The notes beneath the pieces are model-generated. The model was not told the origin of the DNA and made no database searches. It worked only from the letters and a program-made list of their open reading frames with translations. A DNA stretch of 60,479 nucleotides from a bacterium (GTDB lineage Bacteria > Thermodesulfobiota > Thermodesulfobiia > Thermodesulfobiales > Thermodesulfobiaceae), in assembly GCA_021783475.1 (NCBI GenBank), contig JAJXTU010000002.1, positions 1 through 60,479 of the forward strand, in the 5' to 3' direction. A program made the position numbers and the translations under genes. This document shows, piece by piece, positions 4-24,404 of the stretch (position 1 is its first letter; every line of letters starts with the position of its first letter).

Positions 4-3000
4 GTTAGAGAAATTCCCTGATGAATAAGGGATTGCGACATACACCCTTGAAATCTCCTAAAGCATCTGCTATTATTGTTAGAGAAATTCCCTGATGAAT
101 AAGGGATTGCGACTTATTTAATATTCTCCTGAGTAAAATTCATTTTTAGTCAACTGGTTAGAGAAATTCCCTGATGAATAAGGGATTGCGACTTGGGATA
201 AACCCGTATTTATACAAAGACAAACTTAAGTTAGAGAAATTCCCTGATGAATAAGGGATTGCGACTAAATGTACAAGTTTTCAGTGTAACACTTTTCTTG
301 ATAACTGTTAGAGAAATTCCCTGATGAATAAGGGATTGCGACCCGTCATACTGTACGAAAAACCCTTGATCGGTTTTGACTGTTAGAGAAATTCCCTGAT
401 GAATAAGGGATTGCGACTCTATAATAGAACTCGGGATAACCCTTATCCCAAGTTAGTTAGAGAAATTCCCTGATGAATAAGGGATTGCGACCTGAATCGG
501 GGAAGTGAAGGTTTAAATCTCCACCACTCTTAGTTAGAGAAATTCCCTGATGAATAAGGGATTGCGACTATATATCAATAGTCATTCTAATTACCTTCCT
601 TTCTTGTATGTTAGAGAAATTCCCTGATGAATAAGGGATTGCGACCCAATTATTTCTATAGGCCTTAACGCCTATACAAGAAAGGTTAGAGAAATTCCCT
701 GATGAATAAGGGATTGCGACTTTATAGGGACTCTTTTGCGAGTCCCTTTTTCAATAACGTTAGAGAAATTCCCTGATGAATAAGGGATTGCGACTTTCAA
801 CTTGTCATTTTTCATTACTTTACCTCCCTAACATGTTAGAGAAATTCCCTGATGAATAAGGGATTGCGACTTTTTACCACTCTTAGACTCACTATACAGT
901 GAGTCTAAAGGTTAGAGAAATTCCCTGATGAATAAGGGATTGCGACTTGTATAGAGATTCAACCCAATGCTAACAATCTTATTATCGATGTTAGAGAAAT
1001 TCCCTGATGAATAAGGGATTGCGACTCATTGAGAATGACTTCAAGCTTAAAGTCCTTCAGGTCTATGTTAGAGAAATTCCCTGATGAATAAGGGATTGCG
1101 ACTTTATTATATTTTTCTTTCAAAATTCCAAATATTCTTTTAGTTAGAGAAATTCCCTGATGAATAAGGGATTGCGACTTTAATTGAATAGTATAATTAC
1201 CACCCATTTCTCCCATGTTAGAGAAATTCCCTGATGAATAAGGGATTGCGACTTTATGTTTATTTTTCTGTCTATTTCGTTTATTTCTATTTCTGTTAGA
1301 GAAATTCCCTGATGAATAAGGGATTGCGACTCTTTCTGAATAAGAATACCAGACAGGCATTTTATAAATGTTAGAGAAATTCCCTGATGAATAAGGGATT
1401 GCGACTTTTTTTAAGCGTTTTAGCAAAATCAGGATCGACCTCACTAATTAAAGTTAGAGAAATTCCCTGATGAATAAGGGATTGCGACTTGTTATCTATC
1501 ACTACTGCAAGCCTCTTAAACTTATCGTGTTAGAGAAATTCCCTGATGAATAAGGGATTGCGACTTCTCTATTAGACCATAAGAGTATCTTTCTATCATA
1601 TCGTTAGAGAAATTCCCTGATGAATAAGGGATTGCGACATATTTGCCATCTCTGGCAAATTGCAGTAACTCTTGTTAGAGAAATTCCCTGATGAATAAGG
1701 GATTGCGACTGTCATTTAATGCCAACTGGCGATTTCCGCCAGTTGTAAACGTTAGAGAAATTCCCTGATGAATAAGGGATTGCGACTCATTTTTCACTCT
1801 CCCTTGAATCAGATTTGTAAAACTACTAGTTAGAGAAATTCCCTGATGAATAAGGGATTGCGACTTTTGTTTTCCTTTTTCATTTTGCACTCTCCTAGTT
1901 AGAGAAATTCCCTGATGAATAAGGGATTGCGACCAATGCTTTCGAGGGATATCATTCTTTACTGGGCAATCCAGTGTTAGAGAAATTCCCTGATGAATAA
2001 GGGATTGCGACTACACCGAACATCTTTTCATACAGTTTTGTTATTCTATTGGTTAGAGAAATTCCCTGATGAATAAGGGATTGCGACAATCATACAAGTT
2101 GCATTTCTTACAAATTTGATAATATCAGTTAGAGAAATTCCCTGATGAATAAGGGATTGCGACTAATCTTCCAATGTCTATGGGGTATTTCATTCTTTAT
2201 AGTTAGAGAAATTCCCTGATGAATAAGGGATTGCGACTATGTTACATATTCCGATAACTCATCTAATAGTTCTGATGTTAGAGAAATTCCCTGATGAATA
2301 AGGGATTGCGACAAACTCTAACTCCACTGAAAACATAGGTAATCTTCCCTCAGGTTAGAGAAATTCCCTGATGAATAAGGGATTGCGACATCTAATAGTT
2401 CTGATATTCTTGTTATTGGTCTCATACTATAGTTAGAGAAATTCCCTGATGAATAAGGGATTGCGACTTAACTTCCTGTGCCAGGGTCTTGTTTTCTACA
2501 ATCGCTTTTAAGTTAGAGAAATTCCCTGATGAATAAGGGATTGCGACTTACTCATATTCACTTGACCAACTTTTTTAGACATTTTTTGTTAGAGAAATTC
2601 CCTGATGAATAAGGGATTGCGACTTGTTACCGCACACCCTACACTTCATTTTTTTCTCCTTCGTTAGAGAAATTCCCTGATGAATAAGGGATTGCGACAT
2701 AACCATATCTCCTACTCGGAACGGGTGGTTATTCTCGTTAGAGAAATTCCCTGATGAATAAGGGATTGCGACATAATTACTTCGTTACTCCCAATCTCTA
2801 AATATTCTATCTGTTAGAGAAATTCCCTGATGAATAAGGGATTGCGACTTAAAAGTATAAACTCCTTCGCTCATTTTTCTATAGGTTAGAGAAATTCCCT
2901 GATGAATAAGGGATTGCGACCCAAGAAAGGTAATCATATAACATTTACCAACTTCCATTTTGTTAGAGAAATTCCCTGATGAATAAGGGATTGCGACTCT

Positions 3001-3909
3001 GTATCACATTCTGCCAACTCATCTAACAAACCCGATATGTTAGAGAAATTCCCTGATGAATAAGGGATTGCGACCTACCGTTGGTATAAACCCGTGTTTA
3101 TACAGTAACAAGCTGTTAGAGAAATTCCCTGATGAATAAGGGATTGCGACTTTCTATTAGCTCAAGCCCAGCCTGATTAAACAATGCTAATGTTAGAGAA
3201 ATTCCCTGATGAATAAGGGATTGCGACTCATCAATCCTATTCCCGCATACCCTACACTTCATGTTAGAGAAATTCCCTGATGAATAAGGGATTGCGACGT
3301 AAACATAAAGATTTTCCGTGTAACCTTTTTCTTGATAGTTAGAGAAATTCCCTGATGAATAAGGGATTGCGACTATACTTTCTATTGCTAATCTATTTAC
3401 GATTAGCAAATTTCCAGGTTAGAGAAATTCCCTGATGAATAAGGGATTGCGACATTACCTCCTTTTATTTTTCCTTTAACAAAGGGACTCTCTGTTAGAG
3501 AAATTACCTGATGAATAAGGGATTGCGACTTAAAATAGAACTCTGAGAAAAATAAATTCAAAATCTGATGTGTTAGAGAAATTCCCTGATGAATAAGGGA
3601 TTGCGACGTTTTCTTGGTCTTCACTTTCATACATCTGAAGAAGTTTTGAGTTAGAGAAATTCCCTGATGAATAAGGGATTGCGACAGATAATCTGAAAAC
3701 AAATAATCTGGCATTGTATTGTTAGAGAAATTCCCTGATGAATAAGGGATTGCGACTTCAAAAACATAACCCCTGCCGCTCTTTAGACCAACCTTTGTTA
3801 GAGAAATTCCCTGATGAATAAGGGATTGCGACACATCTTCATATTTTGGTTTAAATATTTCTTCTGGTTTAATGTTAGAGAAATTCCCTGATGAATAAGG
3901 GATTGCGAC
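4..3909 (+). CRISPR. CRISPR array, 52 repeats / 51 spacers within the window, truncated at the left edge
   Basis: 36-bp repeat GTTAGAGAAATTCCCTGATGAATAAGGGATTGCGAC repeated at 4, 78, 157, 230, 307 ... 3874; spacers 33-47 nt. Repeat contains the inverted stem TCCCT/AGGGA and ends in ATTGCGAC, which resembles the 8-nt 5' tag of type I-B/III crRNAs. This suggests the + strand is the crRNA strand. The only variant repeat (3494) is near the right end, consistent with a trailer end there. Strand is inferred. Confidence 0.98.
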
Positions 3910-5053: not shown

Positions 5054-8000
5054 TTATGATTTGCTTATTTCATTCGCGATTAATTCTGTTTGTTTTAATA
5101 CTGTTTCGGTAGCCAAGAGTTCCATATCTGGGGGATAGCCATATTTTCTTAGCGTTCTCTTTACTATAACGCGCAGCTTTGCTCTTGCGCTCTCTCTAAT
5201 CGTCCAGTCAATCGAGGCATTTTCTTTGACTCTTTGATATAGTACCACAGCAAGCTCTCTGAGCTTCTCTTTCCCCATCAAATCCTTTGCGCTTTGGTTA
5301 TCGGCCACAGCGGTATAAAAGGCATACTCGTAATCTGAAAGCCCCATTTCTTCTGGTTCTTTGTCTAAATCTTTGATTTCTTGGGCGAGCTTTATCAATT
5401 CATCTATTACTTGAACTGCAGTAAGTATTTTGTTTTGGTAGTTTTTTATGGATTTTTCCAGCATATTAAGTAAATTCTGACTCTGAACAAAACTTTTCAT
5501 TATTCTGCCCTTAATCTCATTATTAAGTAGTTTTTTTAAGATTTCGATAGCGATATTTTTGTGTTTCATATTTTTTACTTCCAGAAGAAATTCTTCTGAG
5601 AGAACAGAAATATCTGGTTTTTTAATGCCTGCAGCGTCAAATATATCGATTATCTGCTCGCTTACCAAAGCTTTATCTATTACCTGTCTTATGACTGTTT
5701 CCATCTCTTCATTTGTTTTTCCTCCCTCTTTAATCTCAAATTTCACCAATCTTGATTTTACCGCTTGGAAAAAAGCTACCTCCTCTTTAATAATCAATGC
5801 TTGCTCATGAGGGATTGCAATAGCAAATGATTTTGATAGAGCGCTTACCTCGTCTATAAACCTCTTTTTGCCATCTTCAAGGGAGAGAATGTGCTCTTCT
5901 GCAGCAAGAATTATAGATAACTTCTGTGATGTATCAGATGTAAAGTATTTTTGGTAATCAAAGCCATAAAACATCTGAGAGACGACTTCTCGTTTTTCCA
6001 TCATCACTGAAACGGCCTCATCTTGTATAATTGCCGGATCCCCTTTCCCGCCGCTTTCGGAATAGAAGGAAAGAGCCTCTTTGAGGTCAGATGCAAGCCC
6101 AAGATAGTCAACGATTAGGCCTGATGGTTTATCCTTGTAAACCCTATTTACTCTGGCAATGGCCTGCATTAGCGTATGACCCTTCATCGGCTTGTCAATA
6201 TACATTGTGTGCAAACAGGGGACGTCAAAACCAGTTAGCCACATATCGCGGACAATCACGAGCTTTAGCTCATCCTGGGGATTTTTCATCCTATCGCCAA
6301 GCAGTCTTCTTTGGCTTTTGTTGGTATGGTGTTTTGCAATTTCTGGGCCATCTGCTGATGATGAGGTTATTACCACTTTGATAGTGCCCCTTTTCAAGTC
6401 GTCGTTATGCCAGTTAGGGCGTATTTTGATTATCTCTTTGTATAGCTTGGCTGCACTTCTACGAGACATTGTTACAATCATTCCCTTTCCCTCAAACGCT
6501 TCCTGTCTTTGTTCGAAATGATACACAATGTCGCTGGCAAGCTGTTTTAAACGCTGTTTGCTCCCTACGATAGCTTCAAGCTTGGTCCATTTTGCTTTTA
6601 GCTTTTGTGTTTCTGTGAGCGTTTCATATTCAAGTTCTTCGTCCAATTCTTTTACTAATCTTTTGCCGTCCTCGGTTAAGCTTACCTTTACAAGCCGACT
6701 CTCATAGAATATGGGCACGGTGGATTTATCTCTTACTGCCTGAGCGATATCATATACATCAATATAGTTTCCAAAAACTGCAGGGGTATTTCTATCAGAT
6801 TTTTCAATTGGAGTTCCAGTAAATCCAATAAATGTGGCGTTGGGCAAGGCGTCACGTATGTATTTGGCAAAGCCGTATTTGATCTCTCCAGTTTGAGAGT
6901 CGATTTTAGCTTTAAATCCATATTGCGTCCTGTGTGCCTCATCAGCGATGACGATAATATTTTTTCGATCTGATAACATGTCGTAAGTATTATCATCATC
7001 GGGCTGAAATTTCTGGATAGTGGTAAAAACGATACCTCCGGACGCCACTTTCAAAAGTTGTTTTAAGTGCTCTCTATTTCTTGCCTGAACAGGATCTTGT
7101 CTTAGGATCTGTTTTGATGCTGCAAAGGTATCAAAGAGCTGATCGTCAAGGTCGTTTCTATCGGTAATTACCAAAATTGTAGGATTATCGAGCATCTGTA
7201 TAACCTTACCTGCATAAAAGACCATAGAAAGGGATTTTCCGCTTCCCTGGGTATGCCAGACAACGCCTGCTTTTTTGTCTCCTTTTGGTTGTGTTTTTGC
7301 GCTTGGGAGATAAGGATATTCGGGGTTGTCTTGAGAGATGTAGTCTGCATTAAGGCCTACAGCTCTTAGAGTGGACTCTGCTGCCTTGTTTACTGCATAA
7401 TACTGATGATATGCAGCAATCTTTTTACTTGTTTTTATATTAATTTGCCCTGTTTCTTCATCCTCTTTTTTGGATCTATCGAAAACAATAAAATATCTTA
7501 TCAAATCAAGAAGAGTCTCTTTATTAAGCATATTTGAAATTAATATTTCAATCTGACTTAAATGATGGGATGCTTCAGATCTACCATCGACTGTTTTCCA
7601 GGTCATAAAGCGATCGGTTCCGGCTGAAAGACTTCCAGCTTTTGCCTCAAGACCATCTGATATAATCAAAACTTCATTATATTTAAAAAGCGTTGGTATT
7701 GTATCTTTATAGGTTTCCAGCTGCCTAAATGCTGAGCGAATAGTAGCTTGTTCATCTGCAGGATTTTTTAGCTCCATTGTCACGATGGGTAGTCCATTTA
7801 TAAAAAGTATGATATCAGGCCTTTTATTAATATTATTTTCAACAACTTTAAATTGATTGACTACTAAAAATTCGTTGTTTTCTGGGTTGTTAAAATCTAT
7901 AAGCCAGACAAGATCTCCTCTTTCCTCTCCACCTTTACGATAGGTAACTTTAACGCCTTCTGTCAGCATACGATGAAATATCTCATTGCTGGCTATCAGT

Positions 8001-8242
8001 TCGGGGGAGTGAAATCGTCCAATCTCTTGAATGGCATATTTTAGAGCATCGAATGGGATCTTTGGGTTGATTCTCTCTAAGGCTTTTCCCAGCCTTTCAA
8101 ATAGGATCACATCTTCAAAGCTATTCCTTTCTGGATACTTTCCATCAGGTGCAATATCAGGTCCAAAAAGATAGCTATAGCCTTGATGTTTAAGAAGTTC
8201 AATTGCGAAGCTTTCAATTTGTGATTCAGATAATTTAGTCAT
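5054..8242 (-). CDS. hsdR: Type I restriction endonuclease subunit R
   Basis: 1062 aa; nuclease-like LFINGLPIVTMELKNP, Walker A HTQGSGKSLSM, DEAH box ADEAHRTQYG, SF2 motif GFTGTPI. Confidence 0.96.
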   Translation of the reverse strand: MTKLSESQIESFAIELLKHQGYSYLFGPDIAPDGKYPERNSFEDVILFERLGKALERINPKIPFDALKYAIQEIGRFHSPELIASNEIFHRMLTEGVKVTYRKGGEERGDLVWLIDFNNPENNEFLVVNQFKVVENNINKRPDIILFINGLPIVTMELKNPADEQATIRSAFRQLETYKDTIPTLFKYNEVLIISDGLEAKAGSLSAGTDRFMTWKTVDGRSEASHHLSQIEILISNMLNKETLLDLIRYFIVFDRSKKEDEETGQINIKTSKKIAAYHQYYAVNKAAESTLRAVGLNADYISQDNPEYPYLPSAKTQPKGDKKAGVVWHTQGSGKSLSMVFYAGKVIQMLDNPTILVITDRNDLDDQLFDTFAASKQILRQDPVQARNREHLKQLLKVASGGIVFTTIQKFQPDDDNTYDMLSDRKNIIVIADEAHRTQYGFKAKIDSQTGEIKYGFAKYIRDALPNATFIGFTGTPIEKSDRNTPAVFGNYIDVYDIAQAVRDKSTVPIFYESRLVKVSLTEDGKRLVKELDEELEYETLTETQKLKAKWTKLEAIVGSKQRLKQLASDIVYHFEQRQEAFEGKGMIVTMSRRSAAKLYKEIIKIRPNWHNDDLKRGTIKVVITSSSADGPEIAKHHTNKSQRRLLGDRMKNPQDELKLVIVRDMWLTGFDVPCLHTMYIDKPMKGHTLMQAIARVNRVYKDKPSGLIVDYLGLASDLKEALSFYSESGGKGDPAIIQDEAVSVMMEKREVVSQMFYGFDYQKYFTSDTSQKLSIILAAEEHILSLEDGKKRFIDEVSALSKSFAIAIPHEQALIIKEEVAFFQAVKSRLVKFEIKEGGKTNEEMETVIRQVIDKALVSEQIIDIFDAAGIKKPDISVLSEEFLLEVKNMKHKNIAIEILKKLLNNEIKGRIMKSFVQSQNLLNMLEKSIKNYQNKILTAVQVIDELIKLAQEIKDLDKEPEEMGLSDYEYAFYTAVADNQSAKDLMGKEKLRELAVVLYQRVKENASIDWTIRESARAKLRVIVKRTLRKYGYPPDMELLATETVLKQTELIANEISKS

Positions 8243-10943
8243 GGTTAATATCTTTTAACTTTGATTTTAATAAACCTATATCTTTTCCTATATTTTTTTT
8301 TGATGACTTTAAAATTTTTAAAACTTTATTTTCAGTTTCAGGTGTCCAATATATTTTCAATTTTTCTTTTGCTCTTGTTATTGCTGTATAAAAAATACTA
8401 TGCGTTATTAATTCGTCAATTTCATTAGATATAACAATCTTTACAGAATCATATTCTAAGCCTTGTGCTTTATGAATAGAAACAGCATATGCAATTTGAA
8501 AAGGAATTACTGTATTTGGTGATTCGTCATCTTCATCTGTGTTTTTATATTTATTAATACTAAATCTTATTATAGAATTGTTATTATCTAAATTTTCTAT
8601 CAATTCACAATCATAACCTGAGATATCTATCTCATTAATACTTTTACAAACTTCAATATCAAACTGAATTTTATCTTCAAAGTTATTTATGCCAACAATT
8701 TTTCCCTTTAAATTATTATATATCGCAGGACCAAATCTTTTTGTTTCATTAAATAAAATTGGGTCACCTATTTTAAATATTTGTTCTCCCAAGTATATTG
8801 GATTATTCCTATTGTTGGCTTGTAAAAAAATATTGATATTATTTATTCCATAAAAACCATCATAATTTAACAATAAAATTATTTCGTCTTCGTTTTCATT
8901 CTTTTCAAAAATAGAGTTATCTAATTTGGTGGTATAACCTTTTTTTACTAGATATTCTACTATATCATCGTTTAAACTTCTAACTTTATCCCATAAATCA
9001 AGTAATTCTTTATTCTTTGCACGATAAGGTTTTGTTAATTCAGCTATAGATTCTTCAGGAATAAATTTTTTTAAAATACTGAACCAATTACCAAATCTAA
9101 TTGCTTCAATTTGATAAGTATCACCTACCAATATAAGTAATTTATATGGAACTTTTTTTAAAATTTCAACCATATCCTTATTGCTAACAGTGCTACATTC
9201 ATCAACAAAGAGTAAACCATAATTATCTAACTGATTTTGTGATAAAAACTTGGTAATCGTTTTATATTCACAATTTGAAGCATGAACTTTCCCTTTTAAG
9301 TTGTCTACAGCAGGGTTTGTATTAGCTAAAAATAATTTTTTTTGCTCATTGAAAAATTGAGATATATGATTTATTAAGGTTGATTTTCCTGTTCCAGCCG
9401 CACCGTAAATAATAGCTACATGAGATTTTTCAAATATTTTTCTAATTGCCTCTTTTTTCTCATCACAATCAATTATATTTGGGGTTTCTTTTAACCAATA
9501 ATCAACAGAGTCTTTATAACCCCTTACTCCAGATGTAGTTAATTCTTTAATTTTTTTTATAATCTCAATAGTATCTGATTCATATTTAGAGATGTAAACA
9601 AAATTATTGTAAGTTTTTATACTTCGTATTTCATTATGTCCTTTATATAATGAATCATTGTATTTTTTTATTAAGCTATCTATATGTTCAAATCCACAGA
9701 TATCATCTTTTTTAGTATATAACTCTCCCTTTATTTCGGTATTATTTTTAATTATTCTTGCCAAAAATTCGTGTTCTCTATTAGTGAAATCTAAACATTC
9801 AAACAAATCACTTATACTCGGATTGTGATTCACAAGAGAAGTGCAAAATGGCATTTGGTCAAATGGTATACAACCATATTTTAATTTTAAGCCTTGTTTA
9901 TAGTTGCAAAAGTTATTATCGAATTGTTGTTGTTTAATAATTTTATTTTTAAGACTATACAGTAAGTATTTTATTACGTTACTACCATTAGCATTGTTTT
10001 GTATCAACTCATTACATTTGTCTAAAACAATTAAAAATTCTTTACTTTCACTGTTTTTAGTTAAACCAATTTTTAATTCTTCGTAATTTTCTGCAGTAAC
10101 TAAATCAACTAGATTATAATTAGATTTAGTTAAAAATCTCATTAAATTTTTGTATTCCTTATGCCCACTTGAAATATTTAAATTTAAACCGAAAATACTA
10201 GCAAAATTATTCAATTCACACGGGCGTATGGAAACTACCCAATCTTCTATTATTCTGATAGGCATATCTTTATCTAAGATATTAATAGAATCATTTCTTA
10301 GCCAAAGTTTTATAGCATAATGTGATGGTATATCAAATTTTGTATAAGCTATCAATCTATCAAATTTACTAATATTATCGCTTGCTCTTGTAAATGTTAC
10401 TTCGGAATATACTTTTTTGTTTACAAAAAATGGTTTTATCTTTTGAATATAATATCTGTCAGGATAGGAATTATTGTTCTGGTTATTAATTTTTTGAACT
10501 ATTTTTTCATAATATTCTTGTGTAGTTTGATCCATGTTAAGCGGAAATTTATCAATATTTTGAAGTACTTCTAAATTATATTTTTCTTTAAGATAAGATT
10601 TTATTTTTAATAGATATTCATAATATTTTAGCATTAATCGCTCTGAACTATCTTTGTCGTATGTATAGTGAGAAGATACATTCTGTAAAAAGTCATGAAA
10701 TTTGCTTAAAAAGCTAAAGTTTCCTTTTGATTTAATATAATTAATGGCTTTTTTTATATTATCATATGAATTATTAATTTCTTTTCCATCGCTGTAAGTT
10801 AATAGAGAAATATGTTCAACAAAGTCTCTCAGCTCCTTTAGAATGTTTTGTGAAAGTAATCCTCTTTCCTCTTTGTTAAATATTTCTATATTTTCACAAA
10901 TATTTTGATCAATTGTTAAAATATTTTTTTCTATTTCTTTCAT
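8235..10943 (-). CDS. SF1-type (RecD/TraA/UvrD-like) ATPase/helicase embedded in the hsd operon
   Basis: Walker A IIYGAAGTGKSTLINHI, Walker B LLFVDECSTV, LVGDTYQIEAI, C-terminal SIHKAQGLEYDSVKI and YTAITRAKEKLKIYW. Overlaps hsdR by 8 nt and hsdS by 4 nt. Confidence 0.85.
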   Translation of the reverse strand: MKEIEKNILTIDQNICENIEIFNKEERGLLSQNILKELRDFVEHISLLTYSDGKEINNSYDNIKKAINYIKSKGNFSFLSKFHDFLQNVSSHYTYDKDSSERLMLKYYEYLLKIKSYLKEKYNLEVLQNIDKFPLNMDQTTQEYYEKIVQKINNQNNNSYPDRYYIQKIKPFFVNKKVYSEVTFTRASDNISKFDRLIAYTKFDIPSHYAIKLWLRNDSINILDKDMPIRIIEDWVVSIRPCELNNFASIFGLNLNISSGHKEYKNLMRFLTKSNYNLVDLVTAENYEELKIGLTKNSESKEFLIVLDKCNELIQNNANGSNVIKYLLYSLKNKIIKQQQFDNNFCNYKQGLKLKYGCIPFDQMPFCTSLVNHNPSISDLFECLDFTNREHEFLARIIKNNTEIKGELYTKKDDICGFEHIDSLIKKYNDSLYKGHNEIRSIKTYNNFVYISKYESDTIEIIKKIKELTTSGVRGYKDSVDYWLKETPNIIDCDEKKEAIRKIFEKSHVAIIYGAAGTGKSTLINHISQFFNEQKKLFLANTNPAVDNLKGKVHASNCEYKTITKFLSQNQLDNYGLLFVDECSTVSNKDMVEILKKVPYKLLILVGDTYQIEAIRFGNWFSILKKFIPEESIAELTKPYRAKNKELLDLWDKVRSLNDDIVEYLVKKGYTTKLDNSIFEKNENEDEIILLLNYDGFYGINNINIFLQANNRNNPIYLGEQIFKIGDPILFNETKRFGPAIYNNLKGKIVGINNFEDKIQFDIEVCKSINEIDISGYDCELIENLDNNNSIIRFSINKYKNTDEDDESPNTVIPFQIAYAVSIHKAQGLEYDSVKIVISNEIDELITHSIFYTAITRAKEKLKIYWTPETENKVLKILKSSKKNIGKDIGLLKSKLKDINHD

Positions 10944-12148
10944 ATTCTTACTCTCACTTCTCCGCTCATGAGTTTTGGTAGCAGTATATCTCTAAGTTTT
11001 TCCAGTGCACTGATTTGATTATTGTTATTTATTATTATATTAAAATAATCACTCAATATTGATACCTTCTCTTTTATAATAGATAGTGGCGGCACAATTA
11101 ATTTTGTTTTATAAATATCGTTTTTATTAATATGAGGTTGGGCTCCTCCAGTTTCGTTTAAAATAATTTCTTTGATGGTATGTTTGATCCAAAAGAATAC
11201 AAATTCTTTCGGATAGTTTTTATTCGGTATTATGCCAACTACTGACTGATTTGTACAAGTATCTATTTCTAATAAGCTTATTTGTCCAAGAGTTGCCCCT
11301 GTAATAGCTATAACGATTGTTCCTTTTGGTAAAATTTTAGTATTCGAATTTTCAAGACCAAGTTTTGTTATATATCGTGTTGGTTTATATATTCTAAATT
11401 TATTTACCTCACCAGAATTTATCCAAGGCACATCCCCATCCCAATACTCTTGCTTAGTTGTTGATGGAGTCCCACCTAACACAGTTGTTAATTGTTCGCC
11501 AATTGTTGAGGTTCCCCACTCCTCTTTTGCCTCTTCTACAAACCACCTTCTAAAAAGCGTTTCTGCCATCTGCTCTAACGTATTGTTCTGGCGGTGGAGA
11601 AGGTCTATCTTGTCATCCAAAGATGAAAGCACAGAGGTAATGGCTTTTTGTTCGAGAAAGGGTGGCATATAAAATTCATAATTTTTTATTCTAGATGGCG
11701 ATGTATGCATAATAGATGTACCACTTGCAGAGTTTACTATAAAACAGTGATAATCTGGAGTTCTTGTTAGCCAGTATATAAATTCTTTACATACATTATT
11801 ATCAATAAAATCTAATAAACCAATTCGTTGATTGTGTAAGAATATTTTGTTTTTGTAAAAAGGTATCTTTGCAGAGTATCCAAGTGTATCAGAATTTCTA
11901 CTGAGGTCAGTCATTGTAATAATAAAACTTCCTTCAGACAATACGTATTCTCTTGGAAATTGACCTTTGTAATATTTCTGTTTTTCAGACTTAAAGCCTC
12001 CACCTATGTTGAAATTACCAGGAGTTAATAAAATGGCTTCTGTTTCGCCATAGGTAATACCCTCTCCTTTAAATGCGAAACCGTGTTTTATATCTACTAC
12101 TTCCCCCAACTTAACCCTTTTCCACCCATCAGGCACTTTTTCGTTCAT
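10940..12148 (-). CDS. hsdS: Type I restriction-modification specificity subunit S
   Basis: 402 aa, two TRD-like halves (VPDGWKRVKLGEVV...; EEWGTSTIGEQLTTVLGGTPSTTKQEYWDGDVPWINSGEV), LPKLMSGEVRV C-terminus. Confidence 0.93.
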   Translation of the reverse strand: MNEKVPDGWKRVKLGEVVDIKHGFAFKGEGITYGETEAILLTPGNFNIGGGFKSEKQKYYKGQFPREYVLSEGSFIITMTDLSRNSDTLGYSAKIPFYKNKIFLHNQRIGLLDFIDNNVCKEFIYWLTRTPDYHCFIVNSASGTSIMHTSPSRIKNYEFYMPPFLEQKAITSVLSSLDDKIDLLHRQNNTLEQMAETLFRRWFVEEAKEEWGTSTIGEQLTTVLGGTPSTTKQEYWDGDVPWINSGEVNKFRIYKPTRYITKLGLENSNTKILPKGTIVIAITGATLGQISLLEIDTCTNQSVVGIIPNKNYPKEFVFFWIKHTIKEIILNETGGAQPHINKNDIYKTKLIVPPLSIIKEKVSILSDYFNIIINNNNQISALEKLRDILLPKLMSGEVRVRI

Positions 12149-13298
12149 CGCAGGCTCCTATTATTTCAGCAAAATCAACCTTTTTTATGCTTTTTTGTAA
12201 AAATCCTAAAGCATATAGTTCTTCTTTACAATGTAAAATCCTTCCTGCAATTATGCTCTTATGAGTTTTAAACTTTTCTGCAAAATCTTCAATAATTTCT
12301 ATAATAGCTTCTTCATTTTTGCCCCCTGGCGGTAAAGAACTTATTTTGTCTAAAATTTGATTGAATTCCCTTTCGTCTAATAAATAGTTTGCTGCAAATC
12401 TATCTGCACCTCTTTCTTCTTCATTTTTATCTTCAATATCTTCAATATTTTCCAGAAAAATATTTTTTTTATTTCCGTGAAGAATTACATGTCCGAGTTC
12501 ATGAAAAAGAGAAAACCAGAATATATCATATCGTTTGTATTTGTCTGTAAGTTGGATTACAGGATTGTCATCTATCCATCTAACCACTCCATTTATGGAT
12601 GTTTTTGGTAAATTTACAGTATAAACGACCTTAACTCCAACCTTAAGGCAACATTCCTGAATCTTTTTTAAATAGTCTGATGTTTCTGATCTCATAATTT
12701 CTTTTAACTCTATTATAATATCTTTAAGTTTTTTCCTATTAAATGATTGTGCATTTAATTTACTTGCCTCTATTTCTCCCATTCTTAAAAGTGCAGAGAT
12801 GGCGTAAGGATTTTTTCTGTTTTTGAGAGATATTCTGAAAAAAACTGGAACTTCTTGATTAAAATAGATGTTTTTCCATGCTTCGGAAGTTGAAATATTG
12901 AAAAATGATAACAATTCTTTTGCTCTTTCTTTTAAATTGCGAACGCTTTTTACATATCCTAATTTTGCCAACATTGAATATGGAAAATTTTTAGACCAGG
13001 GAATATCAATATTTAACTTATCTCTTTCTTTTTCTCTTGCAATAAATTCGTTATAGCTTGATTGCTTTGATATCCAGAAACTTGCTGGTATATGTAATAC
13101 TTTCTCAAATTGAATTGCCATCTCTGGAGTAATTGAGCACTTTCCATTTAAGACGTTAGAGATAGTTTTTATAGGTTTCCCAATTCTTATTGCAAATTCC
13201 TTGGGAAAAATGTTTAATTCTTCCAGTTTCTCCCTTAAAGTTATTCCAGGATGAACTGCATAATCTGGTTTTAGCATATTTTTTTCTTCCTTAATCAT
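12129..13298 (-). CDS. HigA-type XRE antitoxin fused to ImmA/IrrE-like metallopeptidase domain
   Basis: N-terminal HPGITLREKLEELNIFPKEFAIRIGKPIKTISNVLNGKCSITPEMA (HigA-like HTH); C-terminal FHELGHVILH (HExxH). Confidence 0.88.
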   Translation of the reverse strand: MIKEEKNMLKPDYAVHPGITLREKLEELNIFPKEFAIRIGKPIKTISNVLNGKCSITPEMAIQFEKVLHIPASFWISKQSSYNEFIAREKERDKLNIDIPWSKNFPYSMLAKLGYVKSVRNLKERAKELLSFFNISTSEAWKNIYFNQEVPVFFRISLKNRKNPYAISALLRMGEIEASKLNAQSFNRKKLKDIIIELKEIMRSETSDYLKKIQECCLKVGVKVVYTVNLPKTSINGVVRWIDDNPVIQLTDKYKRYDIFWFSLFHELGHVILHGNKKNIFLENIEDIEDKNEEERGADRFAANYLLDEREFNQILDKISSLPPGGKNEEAIIEIIEDFAEKFKTHKSIIAGRILHCKEELYALGFLQKSIKKVDFAEIIGACDERKSA

Positions 13299-13308
13299 AA
13301 TGAACCCC

Positions 13309-13686
13309 TTAGTGATAATTTATAATCTCAATTATCTCAATTTCAGTAACTTCTGAATATATCAAGCTTCCATCTGCTCTTTTAGGCAAAGGATTGTTAG
13401 CTGGTTTATATATAAGTCTATACGGTTGTTTAAGATCACATGCAAAATATCCTTTTTTGTCGCCTTCTAAAAGATGATGACGTCCTGGTAACTCCATAAG
13501 ATTTTCAAGATTTTCAATCTTTGAAATATCGTCTATCCTTTGCATAATTTTGTCCGCCATATCATTGCCATATTGTTTTATTAGCTCTTTTTTAGAATTT
13601 AATATGTTTCTTAATTTTCTTTTCTTTACAATAATTTTCACAATAAATATAACCCTAACACAAAATAATGTCAATATTTTTAACAC
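13309..13686 (-). CDS. RelE/HigB-like toxin
   Basis: KKRKLRNILNSKKELIKQYGNDMADKIMQRIDDISKIENLENLMELPGRHHLLEGDKKGYFACDLKQPYRLIYKP. The annotated GTG lies inside a palindrome, so the real start is probably downstream (GTG AAA ATT ATT GTA AAG). Confidence 0.82.
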   Translation of the reverse strand: MLKILTLFCVRVIFIVKIIVKKRKLRNILNSKKELIKQYGNDMADKIMQRIDDISKIENLENLMELPGRHHLLEGDKKGYFACDLKQPYRLIYKPANNPLPKRADGSLIYSEVTEIEIIEIINYH

Positions 13687-13703
13687 TAAGTGTTAAAAAT
13701 ATT
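13673..13703. promoter_or_regulatory. 31-bp perfect palindrome, candidate toxin-antitoxin operator
   Basis: AATATTTTTAACACT-A-AGTGTTAAAAATATT: 15-bp arms, 1-nt centre, immediately upstream of the higB-like gene. Confidence 0.65.
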
Positions 13704-13774
13704 TTAACAGATTTTGCTTTATTGTTTGTCATAATTTTATATATATAAATATTTTCGATCATATTTTTAGAAAT

Positions 13775-15298
13775 TTATTTATCAATGTCATTTATTTGGA
13801 TTTTTTCCAGGTTTTCCAGTATTAACTTATTGAGATTCTCTTCTTCTTTTAGCTGTTCCATAAATTCTTTCCTTAGCTTTGAAAACCTCTCTACAAAGTC
13901 AAAGTCGTCTTCTTCTTCGGGTAGCCCCACATATCTGCCTGGAGTTAGCACATAGTCAAGAGCTTTTACCTCTTCAATGGTTGATGATTTACAAAAACCA
14001 GAGATATCTTCGTATTTGCCAGAGGCTGATTTTGTCTGTGCCCAGTTGTGATATGTTTGTGCTATCTTCTGTACATCTTCATCTGTCAAGATCTTTGTTC
14101 TTCGATTTATAAGTACCCCCATATCTCTTGCATCTAAAAAGAGAATCTCGCCTTGCCTGGTCGTCTTGTTCCTTCTCAAAAACCACAGTGAGGCAGGAAT
14201 CTGAGTATTTAGAAATAGCTTGGGTGGAAGATTTACAACACAATCTACTAAGTCATCTTCAATTATTTTTTTTCTGATTTCGTACTCTCCGTTTGTTTTG
14301 GTAGTTAGAGCCCCCTTCGCCAGAACAAAGCCAGCCCTTGCGCCAGGTGCAAGGTGATAGATGAAGTGTTGGATCCAGGCATAGTTGGCATTTCCTTCTG
14401 GAGGGATGCCATACTTCCAGCGCCCATCCTTTCGCAACAGTTCACCGTTCCAGTCGCTATCGTTAAACGGGGGATTGGCAATTACGAAATCTGCCTTTAG
14501 GTCTTTGTGGAGATCGTTTAAGAAAGATCCCTCATTGTTCCATTTAACCTGGGAGCTATCAATTCCTCTAATTGCAAGGTTCATTTTGCAGAGTCGCCAG
14601 GTGGTTTGGTTGCTCTCCTGACCATAGATGGATATATCGTTAACTTTTCCCTGATGGGCAAGAACGAACTTTTCAGATTGTATGAACATACCGCCTGAAC
14701 CGCAGCACGGGTCGAAAACTCTTCCTTTGTATGGCCCTAACATTTCAACAAGGAGTTCTACTACGCTTCGCGGTGTATAGAACTGTCCGCCTTTTCTGCC
14801 TTCTGCTAAAGCAAATTCGCCCAGGAAGTATTCGAAAACATGTCCCAGGACATCAGAACTTCTTTTTTTAGCTTCAATTAAAGTGATATTGCTTATAAGA
14901 TCGATTAATCCGCCCAAGCTTGTAATGTCCAGATTCCCTCTGGCATAAACCTTTGGCAAAACTCCTCTAAGTGAAGGGTTTTCTTTTTCTATAATATCCA
15001 TTGCATCATCAATGTATTTGCCAATCTCAGGAATCTTTGCATTAGCTTGTAGATATGACCAGCGCGCTTTTTGCGGCACATAGAAGACGTTTTCAGCTTT
15101 ATATTCGTCCCTATCTTCTGGATCGGAGAATTCCTTGACTTTCAACTTCTCGTATAAATCTTCAAATGCGCTTGATATGTATTTCAGAAAAATCAAACCT
15201 AAGACCACATGTTTGTATTCTGCAGCATCAATATTTTTCCTTAGCTTGTCTGCAGCCTTCCAGAGCTGTTTTTCCAGCGGTTCATTGTTATTTTTCAT
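13775..15298 (-). CDS. hsdM: Type I restriction-modification DNA methyltransferase subunit M
   Basis: 507 aa; GGQFYTPRSVVELLVEML, VFDPCCGSGGMFIQSE, DFVIANPPFNDSDW (NPPF). Confidence 0.97.
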   Translation of the reverse strand: MKNNNEPLEKQLWKAADKLRKNIDAAEYKHVVLGLIFLKYISSAFEDLYEKLKVKEFSDPEDRDEYKAENVFYVPQKARWSYLQANAKIPEIGKYIDDAMDIIEKENPSLRGVLPKVYARGNLDITSLGGLIDLISNITLIEAKKRSSDVLGHVFEYFLGEFALAEGRKGGQFYTPRSVVELLVEMLGPYKGRVFDPCCGSGGMFIQSEKFVLAHQGKVNDISIYGQESNQTTWRLCKMNLAIRGIDSSQVKWNNEGSFLNDLHKDLKADFVIANPPFNDSDWNGELLRKDGRWKYGIPPEGNANYAWIQHFIYHLAPGARAGFVLAKGALTTKTNGEYEIRKKIIEDDLVDCVVNLPPKLFLNTQIPASLWFLRRNKTTRQGEILFLDARDMGVLINRRTKILTDEDVQKIAQTYHNWAQTKSASGKYEDISGFCKSSTIEEVKALDYVLTPGRYVGLPEEEDDFDFVERFSKLRKEFMEQLKEEENLNKLILENLEKIQINDIDK

Positions 15299-16026: not shown

Positions 16027-19000
16027 TTAGAACTTGAAACTTAGCTTTGCATCGACCATTGATGCGCTGTAATTGTCGCGTCCAATCTCCGTGTTGGAAT
16101 CGAGATGCACTGAAAAGTTCTTTCCTGAATATACATTGATATTTGCGCCAATTATTCCGAAGTCTCTGCCCAGTTGCTGGGACTGGAAATTGAATGGTAT
16201 TCCAACCTGTGCAAGGCTAGCATTAATGTTTCTGCTGTCATTGGCAAACTCATGTGCGTAGTTCGCATACAATTGAAATTTAACCAAAGACTTGCCGTAC
16301 TTTACGGTGCTAGCGAGCCTTACACCTGGGCTGAATTGGAGCGATTCGGCGTGCTGTGAACCAACTTGCAGATCGAGCGAGTTTGCCCCTGTTTCTCCAA
16401 GTCCATTGATCTTGATGCTGGAATATGAGAGGCTGGCCATAGGCGTGATTACAACGTTTCCAACTCTTAGATCGTAGCCTGCTTCTCCGTAACTATTCAA
16501 CATGTTGCCTGTTGTGGAGCCAGATGCTGTACGGTTGATAAAAGATATCTGACGATTCGTGTCAAAAGAGTTCACAACGTACCCTGCCGAACCGAATGCA
16601 TAGAATTTGCCTGGGAAGTAAGATGCATATAGTATGATTGGAACGGTTTGGTTTTGCACATTTCCCATATTATCGTTGAAGCCTGCATAAGTATGGGCAT
16701 ATCCGCTGGCTATACCGACAAGCAGATCCTTTCTTACTTTATAGTCTGCTCCTACAGTAAGACCGACAATGGAAAAGTTATACCCTGTTTCGTTTGCTGT
16801 AGAATCCTGAGAACCCCAGAAAACTTGTGGATCGGCATAGAAATTCCAACAGTTTAACTTTTTTGTTTCATTAGGTCCATAAGAACCAGTGTTTTCACCT
16901 GCAAGTCTGGCGTATCGGTTGCTTGTGATCCTATCGATGATATCTTGTTGGAAGAAGTTGGATGCTGCAAAACCCAGATTAGCTAAAGAGGCCGCCATGT
17001 CAGGTGAGATCTGTTGATAGGCGTTGGCAACTGAATTGGCTTGGGAAGTTGGTATACTGTCGATAGTGTGCAAAACAGTTCCTATGTCTCCTGTAGTGGT
17101 TGCGGAAATATCGTTCAGCATATTTCCAACCTGCAGTTGATTCTGTGTCAGAGTGAGCACCGAGTTAGTATAATTACGAGATACGCTGATTGATATTCCT
17201 GGGTCGGCTATATTCCCTGCTGTTCCCACCAATGTCGCTGTGAAATTGGCAACCGTAGGTATGCCTGTTATATTTTGTGCATCCTTAATAATATCAAATG
17301 TTTGGCCTGGAGTAGGTACAAAACCGCCCTGGAGCACAGGTTCTATTGTGCCACCATTGAACGTAACTGTTCCAGTGTTGGACATTTCGAGCCAGTTATA
17401 GTTGCTAGGCGAAGCTATTCCTATTTGCAAAGCTGAGTTTTTGCCCTGCGTATAATTGCCAGTAAAAATTGACCCAGCTTTTGAAGGCATAAAGACCCCG
17501 CCTTCATTGTCAAGGTTTCCGTCGATTGAGTTTGTGCTAAGTGTCCCGCCATTTAGGTGATAGGTTCCACCGTTCATTTCGATGCCGTATTGAGCATTAT
17601 TGCCGGTAACTATATTGATTCCACCGGTCTGGGTGAACGTTCCTGCACTAGCGCCTCCTACCCATTCGAAATCGGACTGTAAGGTGCCCCCGCTGAGATT
17701 GTAGGTTCCTTTGCCCGCACCAGCGTTAATTGAGTCAAATAAGTCCGTACCCAGAACCAGGCCGTTGGTTACTATATTTATCCCACCCGTTTGATTGAAT
17801 GTTCCCGTACTGCCTGCATCGCCTATATCCTCACCGGGTATGTAACCTGAGGAGCCGAGCGCTCCGTTTCCGCTGGCAGTAAGTGTCCCGCCGCTGAGAT
17901 TATAAATACCCGTGCCGGGCGAGATGTTTTTGGTTGGAGCCAAAGGATAAGTGACTTGGGATCCAACAAACAGCCCAACCAGGACTGTATTTGTCCCGCC
18001 TGTCTGATTGAACGTTCCAAATCCCTGACATGTGCCGATGACTTCGCCGCCTGTAGAGTTAACGATTCCGCCGTTTGCAGAGCCAACCAATCCGGAAGCA
18101 ATAAGGCTGCCTCCACTGAGGTTAAATGTGCCTATGCCACCCACACCTGCTCCGTAAATGTCTGACCCGACAGCCAAGCCGCCATCTGTGGCAATATTTT
18201 GTCCGCCTGTTTGATTAAAGGTCCCTGTACCTCCTGCATCTCCGACGACCTCGCCACCATCGCCACTAAGGCCTGCCACTGCATTTCCGCCTGTGTTAAG
18301 GATGCCGCCGCTGAGGTTATATATACCTATACTTCCTGTAGCTAATTTATTAGAATAGCGCCATGCAGCGTCAGATCCTATAAATACCCCATTGTTGTCC
18401 AGATTTTGTCCGCCTGTCTGATTGAACGTTCCTATACCTGAGCTATCTCCTATTAGCTCAGCTCCGGAAGCCTCGAGTAATCTGGTGACAATAATTGTGC
18501 CTCCGCTGAGATTATATGTGCCAGTTGATGTCTTACCCGATACGAAAACGTCTGATCCGACAAACATTGTGCCACCTGTAATAGTATTTGTTCCACCTGT
18601 CTGTTTGAACGTCCCTGTGCCTCCGCTGACTCCTATGTATTCCCACGAAAAACCAGCGCTTGTTCCCAGTGCTTGTAGATTGCCAGTCCCGCTGAGGTTG
18701 TAGGTTCCAAGAGCGTTGTATTGTGCGCCTACATTGAGCGCATTGTAGACTGTATTTAAGTAACCCGCCTGGTTCATTATTCCGCCGTTCAAGCTTAGAC
18801 CAACCGATTCATTGTTGTATGAAGTGTTCCCAGTGATACTATAGGGCGAGTTGCCTACGCTTGTGTCAACGGTGAGGTTTGCTGCTCTGACAGGGATCTG
18901 CCCCCATAGCTGTGCAACTGCCAGAAATGAAAGGGAGAAAAACAAAATTTTCACACTTCTGCCAAACTGCACAGAGTTTGCTTCTTTCCACCCCTTATTT

Positions 19001-19122
19001 TTGAAGAATTTTAAGTAAATTGGACATATTATAAAGCGATTTTTTCTAAAACATTCCTGTAATACTTCCCGAATCAAATTAATATTATCCTGAATATGCC
19101 CCCGAATGTAACTTTGACCCAT
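16027..19122 (-). CDS. Autotransporter (type Va-like) with repetitive passenger and C-terminal beta-barrel
   Basis: Repeated GTYNLSGG.L / GTFNQTGGxN modules; C-terminal barrel ending VDAKLSFKF; signal-like VKILFFSLSFLAVAQLWGQIPVRAAN. Start uncertain: the first ~35 codons lie in a duplicated 90-bp element. Confidence 0.88.
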   Translation of the reverse strand: MGQSYIRGHIQDNINLIREVLQECFRKNRFIICPIYLKFFKNKGWKEANSVQFGRSVKILFFSLSFLAVAQLWGQIPVRAANLTVDTSVGNSPYSITGNTSYNNESVGLSLNGGIMNQAGYLNTVYNALNVGAQYNALGTYNLSGTGNLQALGTSAGFSWEYIGVSGGTGTFKQTGGTNTITGGTMFVGSDVFVSGKTSTGTYNLSGGTIIVTRLLEASGAELIGDSSGIGTFNQTGGQNLDNNGVFIGSDAAWRYSNKLATGSIGIYNLSGGILNTGGNAVAGLSGDGGEVVGDAGGTGTFNQTGGQNIATDGGLAVGSDIYGAGVGGIGTFNLSGGSLIASGLVGSANGGIVNSTGGEVIGTCQGFGTFNQTGGTNTVLVGLFVGSQVTYPLAPTKNISPGTGIYNLSGGTLTASGNGALGSSGYIPGEDIGDAGSTGTFNQTGGINIVTNGLVLGTDLFDSINAGAGKGTYNLSGGTLQSDFEWVGGASAGTFTQTGGINIVTGNNAQYGIEMNGGTYHLNGGTLSTNSIDGNLDNEGGVFMPSKAGSIFTGNYTQGKNSALQIGIASPSNYNWLEMSNTGTVTFNGGTIEPVLQGGFVPTPGQTFDIIKDAQNITGIPTVANFTATLVGTAGNIADPGISISVSRNYTNSVLTLTQNQLQVGNMLNDISATTTGDIGTVLHTIDSIPTSQANSVANAYQQISPDMAASLANLGFAASNFFQQDIIDRITSNRYARLAGENTGSYGPNETKKLNCWNFYADPQVFWGSQDSTANETGYNFSIVGLTVGADYKVRKDLLVGIASGYAHTYAGFNDNMGNVQNQTVPIILYASYFPGKFYAFGSAGYVVNSFDTNRQISFINRTASGSTTGNMLNSYGEAGYDLRVGNVVITPMASLSYSSIKINGLGETGANSLDLQVGSQHAESLQFSPGVRLASTVKYGKSLVKFQLYANYAHEFANDSRNINASLAQVGIPFNFQSQQLGRDFGIIGANINVYSGKNFSVHLDSNTEIGRDNYSASMVDAKLSFKF
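19016..19105. repeat. 90-bp direct repeat copy A, at the 5' end of the autotransporter ORF
   Basis: taaattggacatattataaagcgattttttctaaaacatt...atcctgaatatgcccccga, matching copy B at 19158-19247 with few mismatches. Confidence 0.9.
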
Positions 19123-19526: not shown

Positions 19527-20276
19527 CTAAATTGTATCTATTTTTGCAAATCTTGGCTCGTGCAGTGGAACTATGATGTCGGCCATCTCTTTAACTTTTA
19601 CTAAAATATCGTATGCTTCGTATGAATTTATCAGGGTTCCTGGAGGTATTACTTCCATTCCCATTCCTATTACATTTGGCGGTGGGTTAAAGTTCTCGTC
19701 TATTACGCAAAAGCCTGTTATTAACACTTTGCCTTTTTCAGTATTTACCAGTACAGACATACCGCCGGGTGAGTGTGCTGGCGTGAATATCATCTTTATG
19801 CCAGGTAGGATATCCGCATCGCCTTTCAGAGAGATGATCTGGTTGTTTTCCTCGGCGTCTAAGATAAAGTCTTCCATATATCTAAAGTCGAGCGGATGCG
19901 GGTCATGGATCTGTTTTAGCTCATTTTCATGAACGTAAAATGTTGCGTTCTTACACTTTGAATCATTTTCACAGTGGTCGTTATGTAGATGAGTATGAAT
20001 TACTATGTCTATATCTTCGGGGGTGAGATTATACTTTGAGAGTCCTTCTTCGAAGCTATATATTTTTGCCCCCAGGGCATCAACTCTATCTTTTGACTTT
20101 AGAGGCATAAACTCGCCTGTGTCAATGAGAATATTCTTGCTGCCACCTTCTAAATACCAGCTATAAATAGGCACTATAAAAGGTTTGCCATAGTTAAACT
20201 GATACGTCATCATACTCTTGTCAAAGCTTTTGCTCCCTAAAACTATTGGATGGATCTTATATGTAATTTCTTCCAA
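19527..20276 (-). CDS. MBL-fold metallohydrolase (N-acyl homoserine lactonase-like)
   Basis: HTHLHNDHCEND motif; TPAHSPGGMSV. Confidence 0.85.
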   Translation of the reverse strand: MEEITYKIHPIVLGSKSFDKSMMTYQFNYGKPFIVPIYSWYLEGGSKNILIDTGEFMPLKSKDRVDALGAKIYSFEEGLSKYNLTPEDIDIVIHTHLHNDHCENDSKCKNATFYVHENELKQIHDPHPLDFRYMEDFILDAEENNQIISLKGDADILPGIKMIFTPAHSPGGMSVLVNTEKGKVLITGFCVIDENFNPPPNVIGMGMEVIPPGTLINSYEAYDILVKVKEMADIIVPLHEPRFAKIDTI

Positions 20277-20498
20277 TCTAATTGCCTCCTAAATGTTGTT
20301 ATATATATTATTCTATCACAATATATGTATATAGTTATAATAATATTTCTTATAGAAATTTTAGCTTTCATGACTTTTTGTAGATTTTTACACACCAGAT
20401 ATAATTTCTGATTTATAATGTAATTTATCTGAACGCTTTTTTGAAGTGAGTTTTACTGAAATAGCACAAGAAGAATAAATTAAATAAGGAGGCTTGTT

Positions 20499-21149
20499 AT
20501 GAACATAGTAGCCGTGAATGGCAGTCCGAGAAAAGATTTTAATACAGGAACACTGTTAAAATGGGCCGTTGATGGGGCGCTTTCAATGGGTGCGAGTGCT
20601 GAGATAGTTCATCTTTATGACTTAAATTACAAGGGGTGCATAAGCTGCTTTAACTGTAAGCTTAAGAATGGCAAGAGCTATGGCAGGTGCTCAGTAAAAG
20701 ATGACTTAGAGCCTGTTTTAAGAAAAATTGAAGAGGCAGACGCTCTTATTTTAGGCTCTCCAATATATTTCTCCAATGTAACTGGTCAGATGAGATGCTT
20801 CATAGAAAGACTTGCGTTTCCATATTTGGTTTACGATGAGCAGTATTCTACCCTTTTTAAGAGAAAGATCCCTGTTGGATTTATTTATACTATGGGCGTG
20901 AACGAGAAGATGATGGAGGAGCTCTCATACAAGAAGATATTTGAAAGGACAGAATTTTCGCTTGCAAGAATATTTGGCTCTATAGAGACAATGTATGTCA
21001 CAGACACCTATCAGTTTAGCACTTATTCGAAATATGTGGCGCCAAAGTTTGACGTAGAATCAAAGGCGAAAAGGAGAGCAGAGGAATTTCCAAAAGACTG
21101 TCAAAAGGCTTATGAAATGGGTGAGAGGTTTGCTGAGTCGAAAAAATAA
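20499..21149 (+). CDS. NADPH-dependent FMN reductase / flavodoxin-like NAD(P)H oxidoreductase
   Basis: MNIVAVNGSPRKDFNTGTLLKW, ADALILGSPIYFSNVTGQMR; SD AAGGAGG. Confidence 0.88.
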   Translation: MNIVAVNGSPRKDFNTGTLLKWAVDGALSMGASAEIVHLYDLNYKGCISCFNCKLKNGKSYGRCSVKDDLEPVLRKIEEADALILGSPIYFSNVTGQMRCFIERLAFPYLVYDEQYSTLFKRKIPVGFIYTMGVNEKMMEELSYKKIFERTEFSLARIFGSIETMYVTDTYQFSTYSKYVAPKFDVESKAKRRAEEFPKDCQKAYEMGERFAESKK

Positions 21150-21152
21150 CTT

Positions 21153-22043
21153 TTAATTGGAGCTCTTGTTCATAAGCCAATATACTATGCCAAGTATCAA
21201 CACCAGAAATCCAAGCACGATTACTTCTGTAGAGTTGTGAGGTTCTAAGGAAAATATCAATATTTTTCTGAGCATAGCTGCCATTGCAAGGCTTATAAAT
21301 ATATTGAGGGCAAATTTTTTGCCTTTTAGCCTTTTTAGCTCTTCTTCTAAAAGCTCTCTAATAGTCCAGATTATAAGCATAGCTCCAAGTATATTTATTA
21401 CGCTGCTCTCAAACGATGAAGTGCTCCTTAAGAAGTTATAAATATCAGATAGAAACAGGACAAATATCATAAAGCTTGTGAATACAAGGGCCAATATCAG
21501 GGCAATGTCAAAGTAATAAGATATCTTTGAGCTGATCCTAACTATCTTGCTTTCTATGTTTGTTCGAGCAATATAAATCTTATTTTCGTCTACATAAGAG
21601 CTGGTTAGTATGTCAAGATTTATGTCTAAGATCTTGTCGACTGACTCTCTACAGTTTATTCTTTCTTCCTCGCTTGGACAGGACAAAAGAATTGTCTGAT
21701 GAATGTAATTTCTTACAAAGCTCATTGTTGCGCTAACGTAGTGTGTAGGCAGGCCCATATCGGCATGAACGTGTCCAATCTTTTGAGTTCTTATAATATA
21801 GCTTTCGTCGTATTTTCCACAGAATAGTTCCAAAAACCAGGCTTTGAACTTTTCTCTGTGTCTTTTTCTGACTTCAGTATTGCCGAGAAATTTGTTATAA
21901 TCTGGAAACGTGCTCAAAAAGCTATAAAGGGCATCTAAAAAGTTGTCAGCGTTTTGTCTCGCAGCAGGGCACAGGGATTCAAGGTTGTCCTTATCTATTT
22001 CTTTGAAATTATAAATTTTTTTTATGCTTTCAGAGCTTTCCAA
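21153..22043 (-). CDS. Protoglobin-like sensor domain with PsiE-like C-terminal membrane domain
   Basis: N-terminal RTQKIGHVHADMGLPTHYVSATMSFVRNYI (protoglobin-like proximal His region); C-terminal four TM segments including ILGAMLIIWTIRELLEEELKRLKGKKFALNIFISLAMAAMLRKILI. Confidence 0.7.
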   Translation of the reverse strand: MESSESIKKIYNFKEIDKDNLESLCPAARQNADNFLDALYSFLSTFPDYNKFLGNTEVRKRHREKFKAWFLELFCGKYDESYIIRTQKIGHVHADMGLPTHYVSATMSFVRNYIHQTILLSCPSEEERINCRESVDKILDINLDILTSSYVDENKIYIARTNIESKIVRISSKISYYFDIALILALVFTSFMIFVLFLSDIYNFLRSTSSFESSVINILGAMLIIWTIRELLEEELKRLKGKKFALNIFISLAMAAMLRKILIFSLEPHNSTEVIVLGFLVLILGIVYWLMNKSSN

Positions 22044-22156
22044 GTGTTTCCCCCTTTTTCAAAAATTAATTTAATTTTAACATAAAAAAATATTTGTTTG
22101 TGTAAGATTTGCTGATAAGCTTTATAGGGTTTTCGAAGAGATTCCAAGGAGGTACT

Positions 22157-23101: not shown

Positions 23102-23149
23102 AGGAATGTAATTTGCCCAGAGAACATATCTGCCATCTGGGCAATAAAA

Positions 23150-24403: not shown

Positions 24404-24404
24404 C

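Follow-up and report, generated by a model that had tools for sequence, protein, structure and literature searches.

Hairpin-rich spacers in type III-A CRISPR arrays associated with a putative primase-polymerase

The window analysed here, a stretch of 60,479 nucleotides at the start of contig JAJXTU010000002.1 of a Thermodesulfobiaceae genome (GCA_021783475.1), opens at the contig end within a CRISPR array. The array (4-3909, + strand) comprises 52 copies of a 36-nt repeat (GTTAGAGAAATTCCCTGATGAATAAGGGATTGCGAC, with the 5' handle ATTGCGAC) and 51 spacers. Its left side, which carried the leader, is truncated by the contig end and absent, and a repeat copy with one mismatch (3494-3529, + strand) lies close to the right, trailer end. 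We take the + strand of the window as the guide strand because an array of the sister species G002, which belongs to the same repeat family and sits directly behind its cas operon, has the cas genes and the leader upstream.

A type I restriction-modification cluster (HsdR, HsdS and HsdM; 5054-15298) lies directly past the trailer end, with a RecD2-like helicase and a regulator of the HigA/IrrE type interspersed among the Hsd subunits. It is followed by a 1031-aa protein with a C-terminal autotransporter beta-domain (16027-19122) and by genes of 249, 216, 296, 330, 417 and 444 aa (19527-25739). Order and size of the latter match the flank of the G002 array locus (L054, 1197-7386) and partly that of the sister G001, which, judged from ORF sizes alone, suggests an orthologous locus with inserted defence genes. 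G001 has one repeat copy left (L056, 13478-13513) and no match to Cas1 or to a CRISPR-associated primase-polymerase (CAPP), and it apparently lost the whole CRISPR system.

The cas genes of this genome are found outside the window. Contig C14 (L060) encodes csm1 (Cas10), csm2, csm3, csm4, csm5, a 620-aa protein and a cut-off cas1; a Cas10/Csm1 with HD and palm domains together with Csm2 to Csm5 identifies a type III-A operon. The 620-aa protein combines tetratricopeptide repeats (TPR; a weak profile match) with an archaeo-eukaryotic primase (AEP) domain, which matches AEP-TOTE (E = 1e-48) and carries an FDID sequence as its DxD motif. PADLOC assigns the protein to its 'adaptation polymerase' family (PDLC01101, E = 1e-192), and from these matches we predict a TPR-type CAPP as described by Zabrady et al. 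2021 (PMC8211822), where primase-polymerase activity on ssDNA was established biochemically for CAPP relatives. The complete G002 genome has the contiguous order csm1-5, CAPP, cas1, cas2, a small gene, a PD-(D/E)XK Cas4-like gene, leader and array. With cas2 taken from this sister, the module shows the N-terminal TPR and the AEP domain with DxD beside cas1/cas2 that define CAPP_A (TPR). Both the array contig and C14 break off where the junction would lie, and the contiguous arrangement in G002 leads us to assign the window array to the C14 csm/CAPP/cas1 operon, which probably serves it. The array would then serve as the immune memory of a type III-A system associated with CAPP, and the features described below would be statistical features of a system whose kind is known.

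The locus resembles CAPP_A modules of the TPR type, for example that of Marinitoga piezophila, in which TPR and archaeo-eukaryotic primase share an operon with cas1 and cas2, with a type III effector and an array nearby (PMC8211822); the present locus additionally has csm1-5 and a Cas4-like gene. That paper does not mention the hairpin content of spacers (the word 'hairpin' is absent). A reverse transcriptase (RT) was not found by the RVT_1 profile in the four genomes of the genus, whereas three control genomes were positive, and the RT fused or adjacent to Cas1 that marks the RNA-acquiring class is thus missing from the genus. As far as the available text of PMC5576922 and PMC11014452 goes, the RT-Cas1 type III system of Marinomonas mediterranea is alike in targeting RNA but differs in having an RT and in taking up spacers in either orientation, which are one-sided here. 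The RT-less type III adaptation of Thermus thermophilus is comparable in that conventional adaptation genes serve a type III system, according to the available part of PMC7515739.

Perfect stems of 7 bp or more, with loops of 3-7 nt, occur in eight of the 51 window spacers. S06 (418-455; this and all following on the + strand) has the stem GGGATAA/TTATCCC with a loop of 3 nt and an open antisense frame (TWDKGYPEFYYR), and S09 (646-684) has TATAGGC/GCCTATA with a loop of 6 nt, its antisense frame likewise open. The stem of S10 (721-758), AGGGACTC/GAGTCCCT, is followed by TTTTT and is the sole terminator-like hairpin among the eight. S12 (871-910) carries an 11-bp stem, with LDSLYSESKSGK as its antisense translation, and S22 (1639-1673) pairs ATTTGCCA with TGGCAAAT while all three antisense frames stay open. 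A 9-bp stem in S23 (1710-1750) reads FTTGGNRQLALND in antisense. S41 (3075-3114) has the stem GTATAAAC/GTTTATAC and the antisense translation SLLLYKHGFIPTV, and S45 (3374-3417) has a 9-bp stem with the antisense translation GNLLIVNRLAIESI. Each of the eight has one or more open antisense frames.

These eight stems were all present as the original prediction had written them, and its rough estimate that chance would yield well under one was borne out. When perfect stems of 7 bp or more with loops of 3-8 nt are scored against dinucleotide-preserving shuffles of each spacer, the shuffled mean is 0.62-0.66, and none of 500 and none of 1000 shuffled arrays reaches eight. Stems of at least 8 bp number six in the window array against 0.16 expected, and 40-mers from the remaining window give 0.95 hairpins per 51. 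Folding-energy z-scores were unstable owing to near-zero variances and were not used.

The same null, which had been proposed for related arrays, gives 40 hairpins in 283 deduplicated spacers against 3.7 expected over four type III-A arrays: 8/51 in the window (0.62 expected), 12/92 in G002 (1.13), and 10/91 (1.48) and 10/49 (0.47) in the sister species G003. The type I-B arrays of the two sisters have 3/84 in G002 (1.10) and 2/35 in G003 (0.33), together 5/119 against 1.4. Before deduplication, the type III count of 40/284 differs from the I-B count of 5/122 with a Fisher p of 0.0016; in the examined sequence of the window genome no I-B array was seen. Natural baselines also lie above their shuffles, by 3.5-fold in the sister I-B arrays and 3.0-fold in control arrays of genomes without CAPP. 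The window array exceeds its shuffles 13-fold; part of this is ordinary, since natural DNA has a somewhat higher hairpin content than its shuffles, and the specific excess is about 3-4-fold over the natural baseline. The hairpin excess is confirmed as real and recurring, and it is weak in the DNA-targeting I-B arrays of the two sister species.

A profile search located CAPP genes in unrelated genomes, and we read the arrays close to four of these genes. The CAPP-linked arrays have 6/71 (0.75 expected), 10/71 (1.49), 2/40 (0.31) and 2/16 (0.18) hairpin spacers, pooled 20/198 against 2.73, or 6- to 11-fold over shuffles. As controls we used 22 arrays that neighbour Cas10 genes in genomes lacking a CAPP match; these include other types lying nearby, are not composition-matched and give 13/554 against 4.37. 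The two sets differ at p = 2e-5 (Fisher). One control array, in G020, is equally enriched (4/39 against 0.23 expected), which rules out CAPP as a necessary cause. CAPP is associated with the hairpin excess and is not required for it.

Several features indicate which strand the guides recognise. The GC skew of type III spacers is -0.23 to -0.33 and that of I-B spacers about 0, overlapping type III spacers have the same orientation in nearly all cases, and 97% of type III spacers, compared with 80% in shuffles, have one or more open antisense frames. One-sided spacers with open antisense frames argue that the guides are antisense to mRNA. The bias by itself does not reveal the route of acquisition, as selection in type III systems can produce it. 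The first base of spacers in the four type III arrays (window 4-3909, L054, L058 and L070) is T in 55% (T overall, 34%) and G in 5%, possibly an end preference of the adaptation module. Spacers covering gene starts, a further element of the original prediction, stand on weaker ground than the hairpins: antisense signatures of a ribosome-binding site plus start codon occur in 5/51 window spacers against 2.0 in shuffles (maximum 6). Over the four arrays such signatures are found 20 times in antisense and never in sense, and there is little excess over shuffles because the composition of the spacers itself favours the motif.

Many of the G003 spacers sample two coding sequences, gene A (MLYAVFEGREGLIYVRPVVKVGARWVTTWFREDNLASVVPF) and gene B (MKKLVVTIDGKEVLSLPYVGKDSSTGKNVILFTTGGNVPVVNNEIVNSIEG..GLGVYEVV), whose references we assembled from the spacers themselves and which are probably small genes of viruses that were not themselves recovered. 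Under the stricter cut, 46 spacers match alleles of A or B in antisense, and G003 supplies 44 of these. At least 44 of the 140 G003 spacers (arrays L058 and L070) hence target alleles of just two small genes, an unusually narrow hotspot. Three of the window hairpins fit gene B in frame: S23 clearly, S12 by way of a sister spacer (G002_67) that shares its hairpin with synonymous compensatory changes, and S45 weakly. At the place homologous to the S23 hairpin, spacer G003a_86 has a different stem. This is typical of gene B, where hairpins recur at homologous places with differing stems, and at its DGK site pairing occurs in only some of six alleles. The hairpin at site A (WVTTWF) is better kept; its nine alleles retain 96.5% of 85 pair cells, and one pair occurs as CG, AU and GC. 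The covariation score at this site, from alleles that are few and related, is 0.225 against 0.148 in shuffles (1/500); with the partner slid it does not exceed 0.096.

The source viruses were sought in several collections. Neither the phage collection, searched with the window spacers, nor scans of IMG/VR nor the genus genomes yielded a source virus; the plasmid search gave no protospacers, and neither did the phage collection for the arrays of the Marinitoga-like host and of the unrelated host G162. The gene B peptide matched only the arrays themselves among 386 genomes. Two weak matches of the gene A peptide to capsid-annotated streptococcal phage genes (E = 2) were disregarded, and the protospacer candidates L073 and L077 were chance matches.

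We favour the explanation that the hairpin excess is inherited from the targets, with a probability of about 0.48. The III-A guides would be antisense to transcripts, and many of them would be drawn from a small set of transcribed genes in uncultured viruses, the coding sequence of which would be dense in short hairpins before any capture. The same hairpin is found in independently bounded spacers (G002_50/51, G002_20/27 and G003a_9/11), which indicates that hairpins pre-existed in the source and were not made during capture. Hairpin centres are spread along the spacer, and the stem reaches the spacer edge exactly in 11/40, as if randomly cut. The hairpin site of gene A is contained in 7/23 spacers against 5.8 for uniform sampling (P = 0.37), and at least one of the three hairpin sites of gene B in 9/23 against 8.8 (P = 0.55). 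Containment at the uniform rate suggests that the hairpins belong to the target and do not act as an acquisition signal. In view of the compensatory change at one site at least, a viral function probably maintains them, for example a role in the structure of the mRNA or the genome. Conservation is not general: S03 (193-229) is an allele of the S41 site in which the stem is broken that is full in S41, and the DGK site is unpaired in some alleles. As scored, 30 of the 40 hairpin spacers fall outside genes A and B, and we presume that the same cause covers these. If hairpins belong to the targets, the arrays would indicate an unseen virus group with conserved genic hairpins, and the spacers would be sequence tags for finding those viruses.

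A bias in acquisition is a tentative alternative that we consider possible but improbable. CAPP-Cas1-Cas2(-Cas4) would take ssDNA prespacers from R-loops, replication intermediates or nuclease products, and folded segments would survive or prime better. CAPPs act on ssDNA, priming and extending short strands, and have been proposed to make double-stranded prespacers from them (PMC8211822). The enrichment of CAPP-linked arrays in four unrelated hosts over non-CAPP arrays and the much weaker I-B arrays are in line with this, and an excess in unrelated hosts with other viruses fits a cause on the side of the system more easily than one in the targets. Against it, spacers within genes A and B are blind to hairpins, the G020 array is as enriched without CAPP, an RT is also present in three of the four other CAPP hosts, and the comparison rests on few lineages, incomplete contigs and controls unmatched for composition. 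The original prediction of acquisition from structured nucleic acid is supported in so far as the source sequences are structured; that hairpins drive the acquisition finds no support where genes A and B allow a test. For the role of CRISPR-associated primase-polymerases in adaptation, spacers that are rich in hairpins and come from one strand, as seen in several type III arrays linked to CAPP, provide a concrete signature to be tested in acquisition experiments. A broader proposal, that RT-less CAPP type III-A modules harvest folded single-stranded nucleic acid and that a hidden virus group has conserved coding hairpins, we regard as doubtful; structure-linked spacer acquisition, if true, was not described before.

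The targets could instead be viruses with structured single-stranded genomes, either ssDNA or RNA captured without RT. Spacers from one strand, in-frame hairpins with compensatory change and the failure of DNA phages to match are compatible with such viruses. The I-B spacers weigh against them: G003_IB_2 overlaps the type III spacer G003a_59 in 23/24 nt, G003_IB_25 overlaps G003a_39 in 17/17, and G002_IB_83 overlaps gene B in 25/29 nt. As I-B systems target DNA, the overlaps with type III spacers imply a DNA form for some of the targets at least, which sets back a pure RNA-virus source. The genus also lacks an RT, and CAPPs use RNA templates poorly (PMC8211822). Altogether, we consider single-stranded genomes unlikely.

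Selection after random acquisition appears less probable again. Type III immunity requires complementarity to the transcript, and the orientation of a spacer therefore matters. A self-complementary guide would pair with transcripts of either strand, work in both orientations and so be retained more often. The dependence on orientation speaks for such retention, but the gene-assigned hairpin spacers are antisense like the others, and self-folded guides or folded targets should perform worse.

Capture of intrinsic terminators or gene-boundary hairpins at transcript ends, one of the sources originally proposed, is very unlikely. The hairpins share a GC-containing stem and a short loop with rho-independent terminators, and S10 has the full form with its T5. 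The T-run is missing from the other seven window hairpins and present in 5/40 over the four arrays, and many of the hairpins lie within open antisense frames, as do all eight in the window. The further claim that hairpins mark gene boundaries finds no support either, given that several lie in coding sequence, antisense to mRNA, among them the three that fit gene B. Fold-back copying of one arm by the primase-polymerase, by which the hairpin would arise at capture, would accord with the ability of CAPP to extend primed ends (PMC8211822) and is rejected as scarcely credible, both arms being coding and in frame in S12 and S23 and the same hairpins recurring in independently bounded spacers.

On the guide strand, S10 (721-758) would itself fold as a terminator, which might stop transcription of the remaining array. 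The unrelated host G162 (L110-L111) has a nearly identical repeat (GTAAGAATATTTCCCTGATTTATAAGGGATTGCGAC) together with csm genes, Card1- and Csx1-like genes and an RT-CAPP protein, and its spacers include paired alleles of a single hairpin, CCCG-CGTC-CGGG and CTCG-CGTC-CGAG.
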